A stretch of DNA of 64,000 nt from Steroidobacteraceae bacterium. Lineage in GTDB: Bacteria > Pseudomonadota > Gammaproteobacteria > Steroidobacterales > Steroidobacteraceae. The stretch spans positions 1 through 64,000 of the forward strand of contig JAFMJH010000008.1 of NCBI GenBank assembly GCA_017853555.1. The letters are read 5' to 3'. Positions 45,964 to 62,652 of this stretch are shown piece after piece. Below the pieces are notes generated by a model. That model did no database searches, was not told where the DNA came from, and saw only the letters and a program-made list of their open reading frames with translations. Each line of letters starts with the position of its first letter. Within the stretch, counting starts at the first letter, position 1. The position numbers and the translations under genes are program-made.

Positions 45964-47562
45964 GTGCCCAACGCCTTGTCCACCGCCGATCGCCTGCCTG
46001 GTCTGATGGCCGGCATACGCCCGCTCATCATGCTGGTCGGGCTCGCCGCTGCCGTGGCGCTCGGCGTTGCCGTCGTATTGTGGTCGCAGGCGCCGACATA
46101 CTCGCTGTTGTATTCGAATTTGCCGGATGACGACGTGGCCGCGGTCAGCCAGGCGCTCGGCGCTGCCGGCATACCGTATCGGCTCGAAAACGGCACTGGT
46201 GCGCTCTCGGTGGCCCAAGAGCGTCTCAACGACGCGCGCCTTTTGCTCGCCGGCAAAGGCGTGGTCGAATCCGGCGGCTTCGCGAATCTCGCCAAAGAAA
46301 ACGGTTTCGGCACTTCGCAGTTCATGGAGGGGGCACGTTACCAGCATGCGCTCGAGACCGAATTGGCGCGTACCATCGCGAGCCTGCAGCAAGTGGCGAG
46401 CGCGCGCGTGCACATCGCCGCCGCGCGGGAAACGGGCTTCGTGCGGGACCGCGTCCGCGGCGGTGCCAGCGTATTCCTGCAACTGAAACCGGGACGCAGG
46501 CTCTCGAGCGAACAGGTGACCTCCGTCGTCAATCTGGTCGCCTCGAGTTTGCCGAATCTCGAGGCCGATCGGATCACCGTCGTCGATCAGCAGGGGCGCT
46601 TGTTGTCGTCACCGCGCGGTCGCGACCCGCAAGCGCTGCGCGATCAGCAGATCGAGTTCGCCCGACAATTCGAAGAAAGCTATGCGCAGCGCATCGAAAC
46701 CTTGCTGGCACCGCTCGTGGGCGCAGGGCGGGTGCGAGCCGAAGTCAGTGCGGAATTCGATATGAGCGTCAGCGAGGAGGCCCGCGAGCAGTTCCGTCCC
46801 GACAGTCAAATCGTGCGACGCGAACAACTCGCCGAAGACCGGCGATCGACCACCTCGGCCGGCGGTGTGCCGGGGAGTCTGTCCAATCAACCGCCGGGCA
46901 AAACTCCCGCTGCCGCGACCGGCACCGAAGGCACACCGCCGAACTCGGTGCAAAGTACGCGCGACTACGAAATCGATCGGACCGTCGCCTACACCCAGCA
47001 ACCGGCCGGACGCATCAAGCGGCTGTCGGTGGCGGTCCTGATCGATCACGTCGATCTGGTCGGCAAGGACGGCAAACCTAAACCCACGCCGCTCGATGCC
47101 AAGCAACTCGAGCGCATCGACGCGTTGGTCAAAGACGCCGTCGGCTTCGACGAGAAGCGTGGGGATCGGGTCAGCGTCCTCAACAGCCCGTGGAGTGGCG
47201 AGCCGCGCAGCACGGATCGTGGCATCGACGACGTGCCGCTGTGGCAGCAGCCGTGGGTGCGCGATGCGGCGAAACTCGTGCTCGGCGCGCTGCTCGTGAT
47301 GGTGTTGCTGTTGACGATCGTTCGGCCGCTGCTGCGGCAATACGCGGCGATGATGCCGCGCGCGAGCACCGGGGCAAGTATCAGCGCGGACGATGCGGCC
47401 CTGGCCTTGTCCGGAGATTCGGTCGGCGCGGGCCCGATGACGCCCGCCAAACCGAAACGGCCTGCGTACGAAGACGATATCGCTCGCGCGCGCTCGTTGG
47501 TCAACGAAGATCCGGCCCGCGTCGCGCAAGTGGTGAAGAAATGGGTCGCGAGCGATGCCTGA
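45964..47562 (+). CDS. fliF: Flagellar MS-ring protein FliF
   Basis: The 532-residue inner-membrane protein has a first membrane helix (PLIMLVGLAAAVALGVAVVLW), a periplasmic YscJ/FliF domain (LLYSNLPDDDVAAVSQAL) and a second helix (LVLGALLVMVLLLTIVRPLL) followed by a cytoplasmic tail that binds FliG. The GTG start at 45964 is 12 bases after fliE. It overlaps fliG by eight bases. Confidence 0.96.
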   Translation: MPNALSTADRLPGLMAGIRPLIMLVGLAAAVALGVAVVLWSQAPTYSLLYSNLPDDDVAAVSQALGAAGIPYRLENGTGALSVAQERLNDARLLLAGKGVVESGGFANLAKENGFGTSQFMEGARYQHALETELARTIASLQQVASARVHIAAARETGFVRDRVRGGASVFLQLKPGRRLSSEQVTSVVNLVASSLPNLEADRITVVDQQGRLLSSPRGRDPQALRDQQIEFARQFEESYAQRIETLLAPLVGAGRVRAEVSAEFDMSVSEEAREQFRPDSQIVRREQLAEDRRSTTSAGGVPGSLSNQPPGKTPAAATGTEGTPPNSVQSTRDYEIDRTVAYTQQPAGRIKRLSVAVLIDHVDLVGKDGKPKPTPLDAKQLERIDALVKDAVGFDEKRGDRVSVLNSPWSGEPRSTDRGIDDVPLWQQPWVRDAAKLVLGALLVMVLLLTIVRPLLRQYAAMMPRASTGASISADDAALALSGDSVGAGPMTPAKPKRPAYEDDIARARSLVNEDPARVAQVVKKWVASDA

Positions 47563-48574
47563 CGATCAATCTCTGATTGCGGTTCGCTCCGGCGTCGACA
47601 AGGCGGCAATCTTGCTGTTGACGCTCGGCGAAAAAGAGGCCGCCGAAGTGCTGCGCCATCTGCCCGGCAAGGACGTGCAACGGCTGGGCGTCGCCATGGC
47701 GCAGATCGCCGACGTCAGTCGCTCGGAAGTGAGCGAAGTGCTCGGCTGGTTCATGGACGATGCCGAGCGCCAAACCTCGCTCGGGCTCGGCAGCGCCGAC
47801 TTCGTGCGCAAGACCTTGATCGAGGCCATGGGCGAGCACCAGGCCGCAGGCCTCATCGACCAAATTCTTCTGGGACGAGCGAGCAAAGGTCTCGAGTCGC
47901 TGAAGTGGATGGACCCGAAAGCGATCGCCGAAATGATCCGCGTCGAACATCCGCAGATCATCGCGATCATCCTCGCGTATCTCGAGTCCGAGCAGGCGGC
48001 GAAGATCGTCAGTCATCTGCCGGAGGAGATGCGCGGCGATTTGTTGTATCGCGTGGCGACACTGGACGGCATACAACCGGCGGCGCTGCAGGAACTCGAT
48101 CAGGTCATGGAGCGCCAATTCGCCGGCAACAGCCGCACGCAAGCACCCGGGTTCGGCGGGCCGAAAGTCGTCGCCGACATCGTCAATCTGCTCGATGCAC
48201 GCATCGAATCGCGCGTCATGCAGGAAATCACCACGACCGACGAAGCGCTGGGCGCCAAAATCCAGGATCTCGTATTCGTGTTCGACGATTTGATCGAACT
48301 CGACGATCGGAGCATGCAGGAGCTGCTGCGGCAAGTGCCGGCCGACCAGTTGCTGCTGGCCTTGAAGGCGACCGAAGACACTCTCAAAGAAAAGATCTTC
48401 AAGAACATGTCGCAGCGCGCCGCCGAAACCTTGCGCGACGACATGGAATCGCGCGGCCCGGTGCGCTTGTCCGAGGTCGAGGCCGCTCGCAAGGAAATTC
48501 TCGCCGGAGCGCGTCGCTTGTCGGAAGAAGGGGTGATCTCCCTGGGGGCACGGGGTGGTGAAGCCTTCGTCTGA
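47555..48574 (+). CDS. fliG: Flagellar motor switch protein FliG
   Basis: The 339-residue rotor protein has RSGVDKAAILLLTLGEKEAAEVLRHL at the N-terminus, an EHPQIIAIILAYL motif in the middle, and charged residues for stator contact in the C-terminal torque domain (VFDDLIELDDRSMQELLRQV). It transmits torque from MotA. Length is typical. The last 20 bases overlap fliH. Confidence 0.96.
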   Translation: MPDDQSLIAVRSGVDKAAILLLTLGEKEAAEVLRHLPGKDVQRLGVAMAQIADVSRSEVSEVLGWFMDDAERQTSLGLGSADFVRKTLIEAMGEHQAAGLIDQILLGRASKGLESLKWMDPKAIAEMIRVEHPQIIAIILAYLESEQAAKIVSHLPEEMRGDLLYRVATLDGIQPAALQELDQVMERQFAGNSRTQAPGFGGPKVVADIVNLLDARIESRVMQEITTTDEALGAKIQDLVFVFDDLIELDDRSMQELLRQVPADQLLLALKATEDTLKEKIFKNMSQRAAETLRDDMESRGPVRLSEVEAARKEILAGARRLSEEGVISLGARGGEAFV

Positions 48575-55471: not shown

Positions 55472-56586
55472 GCGGCGAGAGCGCGAGCGATCGCAGCCTC
55501 GAACCGACGGCCAAGCGACTCGACGACGCCCGCGAGCGGGGGCAGGTGCCGCGCTCGGCGGATTTGACCACCGCGGTGGTGATGGTGGTGTCGGTGCTGA
55601 TGCTTTGGTTGCTCGGGCCGTACGTGATGGGCGGGTTCATCGACGGCATGCGCGGCGGTCTCGAAATCGGCGCGACAACCTGGCGTAACCCGGACGCGAT
55701 GTCCTTCGCGCTCGCGGAGGTCGGGGCGCGTACCGTGCGCGGTCTGCTGCCGTGGTTTGCCGCCTGCTTGCTCGGCGCGATGGCTGCACCGACGCTGATC
55801 GGCGGATGGAATTTCTCTTTGCGCGCGCTGCAGTTCGACCCGGCGCGCCTCGATCCGCTCGCAGGTCTTGCGCGCATGGGCTCCGCCCGTGCCTGGATCG
55901 AACTTGGCAAGAGTCTGTTGAAGTTCGCCTTCGTGGCCGGTTGCGCCGTGCTTGTGCTGTACCGCGAGAGCACGGCGCTCGAGTCGCTCGCGCGCTACGC
56001 GATTCCTTCCGCGGGCGCTGCGGCCTGCGCGCTCATCGGCGAGGCCATGGTGCTGATGGCGGCGGCGCTAGGCGCGATCGCGCTCATCGATGCGCCGTGG
56101 CAGTTGTGGAGGCATCGGCGTGAATTGCGCATGACGCAGGAAGAAGTTCGCGAGGAATACCGCGAGTCCGAAGGCTCGCCCGAGACCAAATCCCGGTTGC
56201 GCGAGGTGCAACGCTCGATCGCCCGCGGCCGCATGCTCGAGGACGTCCCCAAAGCGACGGTCGTCATCACGAATCCTACGCACTATGCGGTGGCGTTGCG
56301 TTATCGCGCGGGCGAAGACGCCGCGCCGCTCGTGCTCGCCAAAGGCGCGGGTCATCTCGCCGCGTCGATCCGCGAGCTCGCGGGGCGACACGGGGTCGAG
56401 CTCGTCTCCGTCCCGCCGTTGGCACGCGTGTTGTATCGCAAGGTCGAGGTCGGCGCGACCATTCCGCCGCGTCTCTACGCCGCGGTGGCGCAGGTGCTGA
56501 CCTACGTCTGGCACGTCGAACTCATAAGGCGTCGCGGCGGCGTCCAACCATCTTTGCCGCAGATCGATCCGAGGATCGAGTCGTGA
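55468..56586 (+). CDS. flhB: Flagellar export switch protein FlhB
   Basis: The 372-residue membrane protein begins with the cytosolic leader DRSLEPTAKRLDDARERGQVPRSADLTTA and carries the autocleavage site NPTH near residue 269 (ATVVITNPTHYAVALRY). Cleavage lets export switch from hook to filament proteins, a step normally triggered by FliK. ATG 55468 overlaps fliR; the long ORF from 54727 lies in fliR. It overlaps flhA by four bases. Confidence 0.96.
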   Translation: MSGESASDRSLEPTAKRLDDARERGQVPRSADLTTAVVMVVSVLMLWLLGPYVMGGFIDGMRGGLEIGATTWRNPDAMSFALAEVGARTVRGLLPWFAACLLGAMAAPTLIGGWNFSLRALQFDPARLDPLAGLARMGSARAWIELGKSLLKFAFVAGCAVLVLYRESTALESLARYAIPSAGAAACALIGEAMVLMAAALGAIALIDAPWQLWRHRRELRMTQEEVREEYRESEGSPETKSRLREVQRSIARGRMLEDVPKATVVITNPTHYAVALRYRAGEDAAPLVLAKGAGHLAASIRELAGRHGVELVSVPPLARVLYRKVEVGATIPPRLYAAVAQVLTYVWHVELIRRRGGVQPSLPQIDPRIES

Positions 56587-58661
56587 GCGGCGAATCATCG
56601 ACCGTCGCGACCTTGGGCGCTTCGTTGCGACGCGGCGTCGGCGTTCCCATCGCCGTCATCGCGCTGCTTGCGATGGTCGTACTGCCGTTGCCGCCGTTCG
56701 TGCTCGACATCCTGTTCACGTTCAACATCGCCTTGTCGTTGATGATCGTCGTCGCGGTGTTCTCGATCCGGCGTCCGCTGGAATTCGCGACCTTTCCGAG
56801 CGTATTGCTCGTCGCAACGGTATTTCGACTTGCGCTGAACGTAGCCTCGACGCGGGTCGTGCTCATGAACGGGCACGGCGGCAGTGGCGCAGCCGGTCAC
56901 GTGATCGAGTCTTTCGGTCATTTCGTCATCGGCAGCAACTTTGCTGTCGGCATCGTCGTGTTCGTGATCCTCACGATCATCAACTTCGTCGTGATCACCA
57001 AGGGTGCAGGGCGCATCTCCGAAGTGAGCGCACGTTTCACGCTCGATGCGATGCCCGGCAAACAGATGGCCATCGATGCGGACCTCAATGCGGGATTGAT
57101 CGACCAGCAAGAAGCGCGCAACCGTCGCGCCGAGGTGCGTGCCGAAGCGGACTTCTACGGCTCGATGGATGGTGCGAGCAAGTTCGTGCGCGGCGACGCC
57201 ACCGCCGCGATCCTGATCCTGCTCGTGAACCTGCTCGGCGGGATCGCGATCGGCCCTTTGATGCACGACATGTCGCTCGGCGATGCGGCGCGCGTCTATA
57301 CGACCCTGACCATCGGCGACGGCCTGGTTGCGCAGATTCCCGCGCTGCTGCTGTCGATGGCGGTGGCGGTGATCGTGACGCGTATGTCGCGCGAGCAAGA
57401 CATCGGCGCCGAAGTGGCGCGGCAACTCGTCGGTGATCCGCGCTTGATCGCCGTCGCCGCCGTGATCCTCGGCTTGCTCGGTCTCATCCCCGGCATGCCG
57501 AACATCGTGTTTCTCGGCATGGCGATTCTCGCCGCGTGGCTTGCGCGACATTTGCAGGGGCGCGAACTCGAGCGCAGTCGCGAAGCACAACGCGTCCCGT
57601 TGACGCGGCCGCGCGGCGAGCCGCGCGATCTGTCGTGGGAGGATCTGCCGTCCGTGGATTTGATCGGCCTCGAGGTCGGCTATCGCCTCGTGCCGCTGGT
57701 GGATGCGGAGCAAGGCGGCGATCTGATGCCGCGCATCCGCGGCGTACGCCTGAAGCTCACGCAGGAGCTCGGGTTTCTCATCCCCGCCGTGCACATCCGC
57801 GACGATCTCGAACTCGCACCGAACGCTTATCGAATTTCTTTGAGCGGCGTGCCGGTGGGCGAGGGCATCGTGCATCCCGAACGCGAACTTGCCATCGACC
57901 CCGGTCGCGTATTCGGCACGATCGAAGGCCTCGCGACACGCGATCCGGCCTTCGGGCTCGACGCCTTGTGGATTGAGCCTGCGCTGCGCGAGCGCGCGCA
58001 GTCTTTCGGCTACACGGTGGTCGACGCCGGCACCGTGATCGCGACGCACCTCGGACAACTGGTCGGTCGCAATGCGCACGAGCTGCTGGGGCACGAGGAG
58101 GTGCAGAACCTGCTCGCGAACCTCGCCAAGAGCGCGCCGAAGTTGGTCGAGGATCTCGTGCCGAAGATTCTTCCGCTAGGCGTGCTCGTCAAAGTATTGC
58201 AGGGGCTGCTGAGCGAACGCGTACCGATACGCAATCTGCGCGCGATTCTCGAAGCCCTGGCCGAGATTGCGCCGAAGACCCAGGAGTCGTCGGCACTCAT
58301 CGCGCAAGTGCGCCTCGCCTTGGCGCGCCAGATCGTGCAGGACATCGCGGGACTCTCGACGGAATTGCCGGTGATCACGCTCGACGCCGGCATCGAGCAG
58401 GCCTTGTCGGTCGCACTCACCAACGGAGCGAGCGCAGGCATCGAACCGGGCCTCGCCGAACGCTTGCAAACGCGCCTCGCCGAGGCAGTGCAGCGCCAGG
58501 AGTTGACGGGTCATCCGAGCGTGTTGCTCGTGCCACCGACGCTGCGCAGCACGCTTGCACGATTTTTGCGCGCGACGGTGCCCGAGCTGCACGTGCTCGC
58601 GTGGAACGAAATTCCGGACAACCGACGCGTGCGACTCGTCAGCACGATCGGCCAACAGTGA
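56583..58661 (+). CDS. flhA: Flagellar export gate protein FlhA
   Basis: The 692-residue protein has eight predicted membrane helices and the FHIPEP hallmark RFTLDAMPGKQMAIDADLNAGLID, then a large cytoplasmic docking domain. Length matches E. coli FlhA (692). The GTG start at 56583 overlaps flhB. It lies eight bases before the FlhF-like gene. Confidence 0.97.
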   Translation: MSGESSTVATLGASLRRGVGVPIAVIALLAMVVLPLPPFVLDILFTFNIALSLMIVVAVFSIRRPLEFATFPSVLLVATVFRLALNVASTRVVLMNGHGGSGAAGHVIESFGHFVIGSNFAVGIVVFVILTIINFVVITKGAGRISEVSARFTLDAMPGKQMAIDADLNAGLIDQQEARNRRAEVRAEADFYGSMDGASKFVRGDATAAILILLVNLLGGIAIGPLMHDMSLGDAARVYTTLTIGDGLVAQIPALLLSMAVAVIVTRMSREQDIGAEVARQLVGDPRLIAVAAVILGLLGLIPGMPNIVFLGMAILAAWLARHLQGRELERSREAQRVPLTRPRGEPRDLSWEDLPSVDLIGLEVGYRLVPLVDAEQGGDLMPRIRGVRLKLTQELGFLIPAVHIRDDLELAPNAYRISLSGVPVGEGIVHPERELAIDPGRVFGTIEGLATRDPAFGLDALWIEPALRERAQSFGYTVVDAGTVIATHLGQLVGRNAHELLGHEEVQNLLANLAKSAPKLVEDLVPKILPLGVLVKVLQGLLSERVPIRNLRAILEALAEIAPKTQESSALIAQVRLALARQIVQDIAGLSTELPVITLDAGIEQALSVALTNGASAGIEPGLAERLQTRLAEAVQRQELTGHPSVLLVPPTLRSTLARFLRATVPELHVLAWNEIPDNRRVRLVSTIGQQ

Positions 58662-58669
58662 GGTGATCG

Positions 58670-59413
58670 ATGCTCGCCGTGTTGCAAGCACCCGATATGC
58701 AAAGCGCTTTGGCGCGGGCGCGCGAGCGCTGCGGCGCCGATGCCGTCGTCGTCGCCACGCGACGCACCGAGCATGGCGTGGAGATCGAGCTCGAGATGCC
58801 GGGCGAACGGCATGATTGGCTTGCCCAGGGCGGGCGGATGGTCGTCGTTGGCCCACCGGGCGCCGGCAAGAGCACCTTGCTCGCGGCACTCGCCGCACGC
58901 TGGGTGTTGCGCCACGGCGCACGACGCGCGCGACTCTTCGGCCTCGGCGCAGCGCATTCGCTCGCCGCACACGGTTTGCAACACGTCGGCCGCCTCGTCG
59001 GCCTGCCGACCGCTGCACATCCGACGGTGGATGAACTAATCGACGCGCTGCCGGCGTCGGAGTTGCACAGCCTGCAACTGATAGAAATTCCGACGCGCGC
59101 GATCGAGACGGCCGACCTCCTGCCGCTCGTCGGCGTGACGCCTTGTTCCGTATTGCTCGCCTTGCCTGCGACCTTGCATGCGCGTTCCGCGCAGCATGCC
59201 CTGCGGCGTCATCGCGCGGCGCGTCCGACGGCGGTGGTGCTCACGCACTGCGCCGACAGCGCCGCGCCGTATGAGGTGGTCGCTGCGGCGTCGGCGGCAG
59301 GACTGCCGATCGCCTATCGGCTCGTCGGTACCCGCATTCCGGACGACTTGCTGAACGCCGAGCACCCCGTCAAGACATCCTTACCGGAGCGAACCCGTCA
59401 TGCCGTCGCTTGA
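58670..59413 (+). CDS. flhF: Reduced FlhF-like protein (degenerate SRP-type GTPase)
   Basis: The 247-residue product lies between flhA and flhG, where flhF belongs. Its first 35 residues match the FlhF start (LQAPDMQSALARARERCGADAVVVATRR). The G domain follows at once, so about 150-200 residues of B/N domain are missing. A P-loop is kept as GPPGAGKST, but the G2 DTYRIGA is now LGAAHSLA, the G3 DTAG is LIEIPTRA and the G4 TKLD is LTHCAD. Only GTRIPDDL near the end resembles the FlhF finish. FlhF normally sets polar flagellum position. Confidence 0.78.
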   Translation: MLAVLQAPDMQSALARARERCGADAVVVATRRTEHGVEIELEMPGERHDWLAQGGRMVVVGPPGAGKSTLLAALAARWVLRHGARRARLFGLGAAHSLAAHGLQHVGRLVGLPTAAHPTVDELIDALPASELHSLQLIEIPTRAIETADLLPLVGVTPCSVLLALPATLHARSAQHALRRHRAARPTAVVLTHCADSAAPYEVVAAASAAGLPIAYRLVGTRIPDDLLNAEHPVKTSLPERTRHAVA

Positions 59414-60254
59414 ATTTCTGCGCCGCAAACCGGTCAACGTCATCGCCGTCACCGGCGGCAAGGGCGGAGTCGGCAAATCCGTACTCACCTTGAACCTTGC
59501 CGCCGCCTGCGCCGCGCTGGGTCGCGAGACGATGGTGCTCGACGGTGACCTCGGACTTGCCAATCTCGATGTCATGCTCGGCGTCATGCCGCGCCACACG
59601 CTCGCCGACGTCGTCGGCGGAGAGCTTGCGCTGTCGGACATCCTCATCGACGTCCGTCCGAAGTTGCGCATCGTGCCGGGCGCCTCGGGCATCGTGTCGA
59701 TGGCCGCCCTCGGCGGCGCCGAGCATCTGGGTCTGGTGCGCGCCTTCGGCGACGTCACGGCACAGTGCGAAGTGATGTTCGTCGATACCGCCGCGGGCAT
59801 CGCCCCGGGAACGCTGCAACTCATCCAGGCCGCGCAGCACGTCATCGTGGTGGTGTGCGACGAGCCGGCCTCCGTGACCGACGCCTATGCCTCGATCAAG
59901 GCGCTGCGCAAAGAATTCGACATCCGCCATTTCAAGATCGTCACCAACATGACGCGTCGCCCCGACGCGGGCGATCGCCTGTTCTCGACTCTGAATCGGG
60001 TCGCATCGCGTTTTCTGGACGTCATACTCGAGCATGCGGTGGACGTTCGCGAAGACGAGTTGCTGCGCCGCGCGATCCGTCGCCAGCGGCTCGTCGTCGA
60101 GGATTATCCGCACGCAAGTTCCTCGACCGCACTGCGCGCGCTGGCGGCGCGCTGCCTCGATTGGCCGCTTCCGAATGGGCCGCGCGGCAATATCGAATTC
60201 TTCGTCGAGCGCGCGCTGAAACGTGCCCCCGCGCAGCTGCAGGTGGTGCGATGA
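59400..60254 (+). CDS. flhG: MinD-like flagellar number regulator FlhG (FleN)
   Basis: The 284-residue ParA/MinD-type ATPase has a deviant Walker A (AVTGGKGGVGKS), DGDLGLANLDVMLGVMPRHTLADVV and FVDTAAGIAPGTLQLIQAAQH. FleN limits flagellar number by binding FleQ. The N-terminus starts MPSLEFLRRKPVNVIAVT and shows no DQAxxLR helix of the kind that activates FlhF in other lineages. It overlaps the FlhF-like gene by 14 bases and fliA by four. Confidence 0.93.
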   Translation: MPSLEFLRRKPVNVIAVTGGKGGVGKSVLTLNLAAACAALGRETMVLDGDLGLANLDVMLGVMPRHTLADVVGGELALSDILIDVRPKLRIVPGASGIVSMAALGGAEHLGLVRAFGDVTAQCEVMFVDTAAGIAPGTLQLIQAAQHVIVVVCDEPASVTDAYASIKALRKEFDIRHFKIVTNMTRRPDAGDRLFSTLNRVASRFLDVILEHAVDVREDELLRRAIRRQRLVVEDYPHASSSTALRALAARCLDWPLPNGPRGNIEFFVERALKRAPAQLQVVR

Positions 60255-60964
60255 GGTCGCAGGCCTACGTGCGAACGCGAGCGGCGACCGACGCCGCGAG
60301 CGGCTTGATCGACTCGCATGCCGGACTCGTCAAACGCATCGCCTATCACCTGAAGGCACGGCTGCCGGACTCGGTCGACGTCGAAGATTTGCAGCAAGCC
60401 GGCATGCTTGCGCTGCTCGAGGCCGCGGCAAACTTCGAACGCGGTCACGGCGCCTGCTTTGCGACCTATGCCGGCATACGCATCCGCGGCGCGATGATCG
60501 ACAGTCTGCGAGCCGTCGATTGGGCGCCACGCTCCGTGCATCGCAAAGCGCGTGCCGCCGCGGCGGCCATCCAGGCCGTCGAGCGACGCACGGGGCGCGA
60601 AGCCCGCGAGGCGGAGATCGCTGCCGAGCTCGGTGTGAACCTCGGCGAATATCACCGCATCGCGCAAGACGCGCTGCAATGTCGCTTCGGCAGCCTCGAC
60701 GAATCGGACGAGCAGCACCCGGCGGATGTCGATGCCGACCCGTTGCGCGAAGTCAGCGATCAGGGTCTGCGCGCCGCGCTGACCTCGGCCATCGAATCGC
60801 TGCCCGAGCGCGAGCGCCAGGTGATGTCGATGTACTACGACGACGAACTGAATCTCAAAGAAATCGGTCTGGTACTCGGCGTCAGCGAGTCGCGCGTGTC
60901 GCAGATCCACGGCCAGGCCGTACTGCGCTTGCGCGCGCAGCTGCGCGACTGGAATCGCAGGTGA
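60251..60964 (+). CDS. fliA: RNA polymerase sigma factor FliA (sigma-28)
   Basis: The 237-residue sigma-70-family factor has region 2 (LVKRIAYHLKARLPDSVDVEDLQQAGMLALLEA and FATYAGIRIRGAMIDSLRAVDWAPRSVHR) and region 4 (LPERERQVMSMYYDDELNLKEIGLVLGVSESRVSQIHGQAVLRLR). It should read the flgM and fliC promoters found here and is held by FlgM. ATG 60251 overlaps flhG; the longer ORF from 59765 lies in flhG. Confidence 0.97.
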   Translation: MRSQAYVRTRAATDAASGLIDSHAGLVKRIAYHLKARLPDSVDVEDLQQAGMLALLEAAANFERGHGACFATYAGIRIRGAMIDSLRAVDWAPRSVHRKARAAAAAIQAVERRTGREAREAEIAAELGVNLGEYHRIAQDALQCRFGSLDESDEQHPADVDADPLREVSDQGLRAALTSAIESLPERERQVMSMYYDDELNLKEIGLVLGVSESRVSQIHGQAVLRLRAQLRDWNRR

Positions 60965-61709: not shown

Positions 61710-62377
61710 ACCCGACCGGCCGCGTGGGACGCGAGCGCTGGGCGATCCCGTTCGCGGATCTTTTGCTGTTGTTGCTCGCGGTGTTTGCCGTGTTGTATGC
61801 CGCATCGAGCGTCGATTCGGTCAAATATCGTGCGACGGCGAGGGCGCTTGCCCTGGCCTTCGACGGCTCCCGGACATCGTCCGCAGATCCGCGCCCGCAA
61901 CAATTGTCGAAGTTGGCCGCGGACCTCGAACGCGTGCTCGCGCCACTGTCGGCAGCGGGTCTCGTGTCGGTCCGTCGCATCGATCTCGGGCTCGAAGTGG
62001 AGATCAGCAACGATCTGATGTTCGACAGTGGTCGAGCCGAACTCGAACCTTCCGCACGGGCCGCGCTCGAAGCGCTCGCCGTACCGCTCGGCGCGATCGA
62101 CGGATTCATTCGCGTCGAGGGTCACACCGACGACGTGCCGATCGCCGTCACCCGCTATCCGAGCAATTGGGAATTGTCTGCGGCGCGCGCTTCCGCCGTC
62201 GTGCGCACTTTGACGGAGCGAGGCGTACGCCCTGAACGCCTCACCGTCGTCGCTCATGCGCAATACAAACCTCTGCAATCCAACGCCACCCCGGCGGGGC
62301 GCGATGCCAATCGGCGCGTGCTGCTCACGATCCGCCCGTTCTGCAACACCTCGGAGGAGACATGCTCGAAATATTGA
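61706..62377 (+). CDS. motB: Flagellar stator protein MotB (MotD-like)
   Basis: The 223-residue protein has a short N-terminus, one helix RWAIPFADLLLLLLAVFAVLYAASS with the proton-carrying aspartate (about residue 18), and an OmpA-like peptidoglycan-binding domain (GRAELEPSARAAL and VEGHTDDVPI). GTG 61706 overlaps the motA stop. It overlaps the next gene by 16 bases. Confidence 0.94.
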   Translation: MNPTGRVGRERWAIPFADLLLLLLAVFAVLYAASSVDSVKYRATARALALAFDGSRTSSADPRPQQLSKLAADLERVLAPLSAAGLVSVRRIDLGLEVEISNDLMFDSGRAELEPSARAALEALAVPLGAIDGFIRVEGHTDDVPIAVTRYPSNWELSAARASAVVRTLTERGVRPERLTVVAHAQYKPLQSNATPAGRDANRRVLLTIRPFCNTSEETCSKY

Positions 62378-62652
62378 ACGAACCGTCGGTACGTACCTTC
62401 GCGCCGTTCGCGCTCGCGGCACTCGGAGCGGTGGTCGGCGTCGCGTCCGTGCGCATCGTCGCATGGCTACGCCGACCGCGACCCTTTGATGCCGCACCAG
62501 CCTCGCGCGTCACGGCGCGCGACGACGACCTGCCGGCCAAGCTCGCGCGCAGCGGCGCAGACCGCGCGCAGCTGATGATGCAATGCGGGCTCGACGCCGA
62601 CGAAGCGGCACTCGTCCTGCGGCTGCATGGATCCGGGCCCACGCGCGACTGA
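62362..62652 (+). CDS. Small membrane-anchored protein, possibly DUF2802
   Basis: The 96-residue protein has one N-terminal membrane helix (FAPFALAALGAVVGVASVRIVAWL), a disordered linker and a compact C-terminus (KLARSGADRAQLMMQCGLDADEAALVLRLHG). The latter resembles the DUF2802 tail found in Pseudomonas flagellar/chemotaxis loci after motD, parA and cheW. GGAGGA lies directly upstream. Function is unknown; coupling to motB suggests a stator or polar role. Confidence 0.65.
   Translation: MLEILNEPSVRTFAPFALAALGAVVGVASVRIVAWLRRPRPFDAAPASRVTARDDDLPAKLARSGADRAQLMMQCGLDADEAALVLRLHGSGPTRD

Follow-up and report, generated by a model that had tools for sequence, protein, structure and literature searches.

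The flhF slot of a flagellar cluster

The window – 64,000 nucleotides from a Steroidobacteraceae genome (G000; contig JAFMJH010000008.1) – carries a set of flagellar genes in which the position normally occupied by flhF, between flhA and flhG, holds one intact open reading frame (58670-59413, forward strand; hereafter flhF1) of just 247 aa. It begins 8 nt past the end of flhA1 (56583-58661, forward) and overlaps by 14 nt with flhG1 (59400-60254, forward), which encodes a MinD-type ATPase; fliA1 (60251-60964, forward), named from reading of the sequence as the flagellar sigma factor, follows. Both the small size and the overlap had been reported in a preliminary description of this DNA, and both are borne out. 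Read in the same way, the surrounding cluster contains flg genes, fliC, fliD, fliS, fliF-fliR, flhB, flhA, flhG, fliA, motA/motB-like genes and a DUF2802 gene, and reads as complete; Pfam matches support FliG, FliM, FliN, MotA, MotB and one FlgE/F/G-type rod protein. The expected partner of the FlhF N-terminus, FliG1, is encoded at 47555-48574 (forward; Pfam FliG_N/M/C). A possible polar partner is a short, FipA-like DUF2802 protein (62362-62652, forward; 96 aa), which scores 32.3 bits against PF10975 (cut-off 33.5) and matches the C-terminal half of the domain only; the genome encodes a FimV-core protein as well.

FlhG1 is without the co-catalytic DQAxxLR activator helix. Because the helix also leaves no clear trace in FlhG of many family members, including ones with an intact FlhF, its loss is probably older than the shortening of FlhF1 and not specific to it: loss of the helix as a partner loss peculiar to FlhF1 was rejected on the same grounds.

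Domains and GTPase motifs of FlhF1

FlhF is the third SRP GTPase and normally uses GTP in flagellum placement; its dependence on the GTPase cycle varies among model species. In Shewanella the first 44 residues fold as a FliG-interaction domain (FID) and the first 60 suffice for FliG binding (PMC11236974). Residues 7-43 of FlhF1 match the crystal structure of this domain (9en1; phmmer E 0.005, weak alone), and an AF2 model built on an alignment of 13 rows (mean pLDDT 82, pTM 0.74) begins with E2-7, H10-21, E26-33 and E36-42 – the beta-alpha-beta-beta topology reported for the FID – before entering an SRP-type core. Together with the alignment, these matches identify residues 1-43 (58670-58798, forward) as an FID. 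Residues 50-230 (58817-59359, forward) form a decayed SRP-type G core: residues 46-230 match the solved NG domain of FlhF (8r9r, E 1e-13), the SRP54 GTPase model is matched at 29.4 bits (cut-off 22.7), and the top PDB match of the model in Foldseek is again 8r9r (TMq 0.69). Against the FlhF family model TIGR03499 the protein gains 59.5 bits (E 5e-16), far under the curated equivalog cut-off of 174.15; it is still recognisable, by these matches, as an FlhF.

An N domain is absent from both the alignment and the AF2 model, with the FID stopping at residue 43 and the G core starting at about residue 50. Aligned with full-length relatives, FlhF1 skips the linker and N domain, resumes at the strand preceding the P-loop, and ends without a C-terminal tail of ~30 residues. 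The earlier statement that the B/N-domain stretch is missing thus holds for linker and N domain alike (and can be extended to the tail) but not for the structured N-terminal part of the B domain, the FID, which is kept. Compared with FlhF as represented by TIGR03499 and by structures from Shewanella putrefaciens (8r9r, 9en1) and Bacillus subtilis (2px0), what FlhF1 shares is the flhA-flhF-flhG-fliA slot, the FID fold, the SRP G-domain fold and the P-loop. A difference lies within the FID itself: strand 1, which carries KIKRY-like basic residues in most FlhFs, reads LAVLQ in FlhF1 and in its ortholog from a sister species (see below), and since the basic residues are replaced, FliG binding may have changed.

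Motif positions were assigned by alignment with over 50 FlhFs, and the outcome agrees with the preliminary description, in which the P-loop was kept and G2, G3 and G4 replaced. G1 is retained as GPPGAGKST (58850-58876, forward). At the former G2 (58946-58978, forward) GAAHSLAAHGL stands in place of DxxRIGAxEQL (Asp to Gly); at the former G3 (59072-59101, forward) LQLIEIPTRA replaces LVLIDTAGxx, with Asp changed to Glu and Gly lost; and at the former G4 (59240-59272, forward) LTHCADSAAPY replaces LTKxDEAxSLG, so that TKxD has become THCA and both Lys and Asp are gone. FtsY of the same genome, by contrast, has GVNGSGKTT, DTFRAAA, DTAGR and TKLD intact; an SRP GTPase of the Ffh/FtsY kind is marked by a complete NG domain whose G motifs are all preserved, and FlhF1 has no such domain. 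A GTP-dependent homodimer and FlhG-stimulated GTPase activity are predicted to be absent. An acidic residue, E139, nevertheless occupies the Walker-B position (hhhhE) in both short forms.

Conservation, selection and erosion of FlhF1

A second species of the same genus (G019; locus L006), the sister of G000 in a FlhA tree (support 100/100), encodes an ortholog of 250 aa that is 52% identical, has the same deletion and an identical LTHCADSAAP, and likewise overlaps flhG by 14 nt. That a sequencing error or a frameshift conceals a longer frame, a case against which the earlier reading had been hedged, is very unlikely and was rejected because this second assembly shares the architecture. Neither gene contains stops or frameshifts; neutral simulations at equal divergence produced a mean of 2.7-4.2 stops, and only 1-6% of runs remained stop-free.

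Selection was estimated by NG86 from this single pair, for which dS is near saturation and all ratios are therefore rough: dN/dS is 0.36 for flhF1 overall, 0.14 for flhG1 and 0.13 for fliA1, and within flhF1 the regional values run from 0.11-0.13 (FID) and 0.15 (P-loop block, residues 50-85) through 0.31 (residues 159-230) to ~0.7 (G2/G3 stretch, residues 86-158). The G2/G3 stretch is 29% identical between the short forms, below all 325 pairs of full-length FlhF. Selection acts unevenly along the protein: the FID and P-loop are constrained and the G2/G3 stretch is nearly free. With a same-length ortholog, a conserved overlap and two constrained segments, the comparison indicates that flhF1 is a retained gene; the proposal that the gene is no pseudogene but encodes a redesigned protein that has been kept is supported. 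The further suggestion that the protein is a nucleotide-independent placement factor fares less well. The TKxD that recognises guanine has been lost, as has the G2 Asp, yet phosphate or nucleotide binding may persist, because K67 and S68 of the P-loop are under purifying selection and E139 is present in both species.

The closest full-length relatives, FlhF1 proteins of the same flagellar system elsewhere in the genus (n=9: L007, L008, L010-L012, L014-L016, L025; about 380-470 aa), retain the linker, the N domain, the G3 Asp and the G4 Asp, unlike the short form. As in FlhF1, their GTPase motifs are already altered: the G4 Lys is Arg or His (TR or TH for TK) in 9/9 and the G2 Asp is lost in 7/9. 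In FlhF1 sampled from other genera of the family, the G4 Lys is present in 26/27 and the G2 Asp in 27/27. Since all nine full-length congeners carry TR or TH, the short FlhF1 looks like the last step of a stepwise erosion.

Eroded or short FlhFs were also seen elsewhere. In another genus of the family (G032, L027) an FlhF has eroded independently (P-loop GRTT, G3 DAPA, G4 THYD) and adjoins an FlhG with GGTGK, and the gammaproteobacterium UBA7803 encodes an FlhF of 321 aa (L047:5623-6585) with a short linker and THTD at G4. Among the matches listed from a search of 369 genomes of the class, the short FlhF frames that were fetched proved to be contig-edge cuts (L173, L175, L176) or, in the case of L174, an flhF that is broken. 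The first of these, from a distant family (L173:2665-3423), carries THLD and lies at a contig edge; the frame-broken gene (L174:2200-2847) is followed by an flhG that is intact and has DQATGLR. No description of an FlhF like FlhF1 was found in the open-access literature.

Two explanations of the short form bear directly on these patterns. The gene might be a slowly decaying remnant, temporarily held by translational coupling with flhG while placement of flagellum 1 proceeds free of FlhF. Room for such decay is left by the near-neutral middle of the protein; its tail, likewise near neutral, the overall ratio (above those of flhG1 and fliA1) and the erosion across the genus point the same way. 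However, constraint on the FID equals that on flhG1, the P-loop block is constrained too, uninterrupted frames in both species are rare under neutrality, and coupling to flhG alone would not preserve amino acids: on balance we consider decay rather unlikely. Alternatively, the core may bind a changed nucleotide through the P-loop and Glu139, being no longer GTP-specific and instead switched by ATP or another ligand. The constrained P-loop gives this explanation its room, the hhhhE at the Walker-B site is present in both species, and losses are confined to the guanine-reading TKxD and the switch residues of G2 and G3. But the switch-like G2/G3 stretches differ between the two species, which makes it difficult to recognise a new switch, and the P-loop may be retained for folding; we regard a changed nucleotide as unlikely.

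The second flagellar system and the role of FlhF1

The view that the genome holds no other FlhF was rejected when a profile search of the genus revealed flhF2 (L123:15206-16303, reverse strand) on another contig of G000 (C43), within a second flhA-flhF-flhG-fliA set. Further basal-body and export genes of system 2, with fliG2, lie on contig C26 (L177); the system thus has its own FliG2, FlhG2 and FliA2. FlhF2 (365 aa) retains FID, linker and N domain. A full-length flhF elsewhere in the genome, which the preliminary description had counted against its own proposal, therefore exists formally, but it is part of the other flagellar system, and its own GTPase motifs have decayed. Arg takes the place of the G2 Asp and His-Trp stands in G4 in 17/17 FlhF2 sequences, and in 4/17 Arg or Thr replaces the Lys of the P-loop; judged from its sequences, FlhF2 is a pseudo-GTPase FlhF in every species seen. 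The slot, the FID, the eroded G4 (TH/SH), the lost G2 Asp and an FlhG without the activator helix are common to FlhF1 and FlhF2. Unlike FlhF1, FlhF2 possesses a linker and N domain, and its pattern of constraint is reversed – dN/dS is 0.06 in the middle stretch and 0.33 (relaxed) in the P-loop. The middle stretch of FlhF2 (L123 and 16 relatives) contains a new conserved motif, RDxRxGaRExFFAxAD..WG.

Within the genus FlhF2 occurs in 14/24 genomes, and a small number of the family's other genera carry it as well; one weak match was obtained, aside from G000 itself, among the 369 class genomes. Both flagellar systems, as judged by flhA, occur in six genomes of the genus (G000, G006, G007, G009, G010, G019), and the others have one or none. 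Neither G000 nor G019 yielded an FlhF whose GTPase site is canonical; since these assemblies are 93.8% and about 90% complete, respectively, a further copy may have been missed. That the two FlhFs cooperate at a shared landmark or in a mixed complex, with the functions lost from FlhF1 supplied in trans, is very improbable: G000 and G019 both hold the two genes, but FlhF2 has its own FliG2, FlhG2 and FliA2 and, being GTPase-decayed, cannot supply a canonical GTPase.

We favour, with about even confidence, a different explanation: FlhF1 would be a minimal FlhF, kept as a FliG-recruiting adaptor without a GTP cycle. No protein smaller than an FID linked to a G core could still do both the FliG-binding and the polar job, and for this reason the adaptor is preferred. 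Its FID would bind FliG, and FlhF1, acting as a static adaptor, would most likely bring FliG/FliF of system 1 to where the flagellum is assembled. The SRP-fold core would no longer be a GTP switch but a surface on which a landmark (FimV/HubP or the FipA-like protein, for example) docks. The P-loop may be retained for folding or residual phosphate binding, and release would no longer be tied to FlhG-stimulated GTP hydrolysis. Consistent with such an adaptor, the same 247/250-aa design is found in both species, with the FID and P-loop constrained and G2/G3 near neutral. The modelled FID topology and SRP fold, the top fold match to FlhF, the helix missing from FlhG1 (unspecific though that loss is) and the presence of FimV-core and DUF2802 proteins also speak for it. 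In Shewanella the NG domain of FlhF binds HubP whether loaded with GDP or GTP (PMC11236974), and in Pseudomonas aeruginosa a G domain without the N domain still reaches the pole, while flagella require the B domain (PMC12713375). Against it stand the conserved P-loop Lys and Ser and the acidic Walker-B residue, through which nucleotide may still bind, and the LAVLQ in FID strand 1; moreover, in P. aeruginosa flagella needed the B and N domains together, and domain deletions did not restore motility (PMC12713375). Those artificial deletions likewise separate the pieces of FlhF, as BN, NG and G constructs, with no FID-G fusion among the constructs given in the abstract and opening Results of that study.

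The lineage as a whole may, we suggest tentatively and with less than even confidence, have given up the FlhF GTP switch, both flagellar systems relying on pseudo-GTPases (one reduced to FID and G core, the other able to do without its P-loop and bearing a conserved surface that is new) and placement becoming a matter of GTP-free scaffolding. Across the genus, the gradation from TK through TR and TH to THCA, followed by loss of the N domain, suggests a possible order of steps. That FlhF1 is kept intact in two related species beside a complete flagellar set suggests that the FliG-grabbing part of FlhF can function in the absence of the usual GTP switch. Having no G2-G4, no N domain and a constrained FliG-binding end, FlhF1 would amount to a natural separation-of-function allele, with which the model of an adaptor composed of a FliG hook and a landmark dock becomes directly testable.
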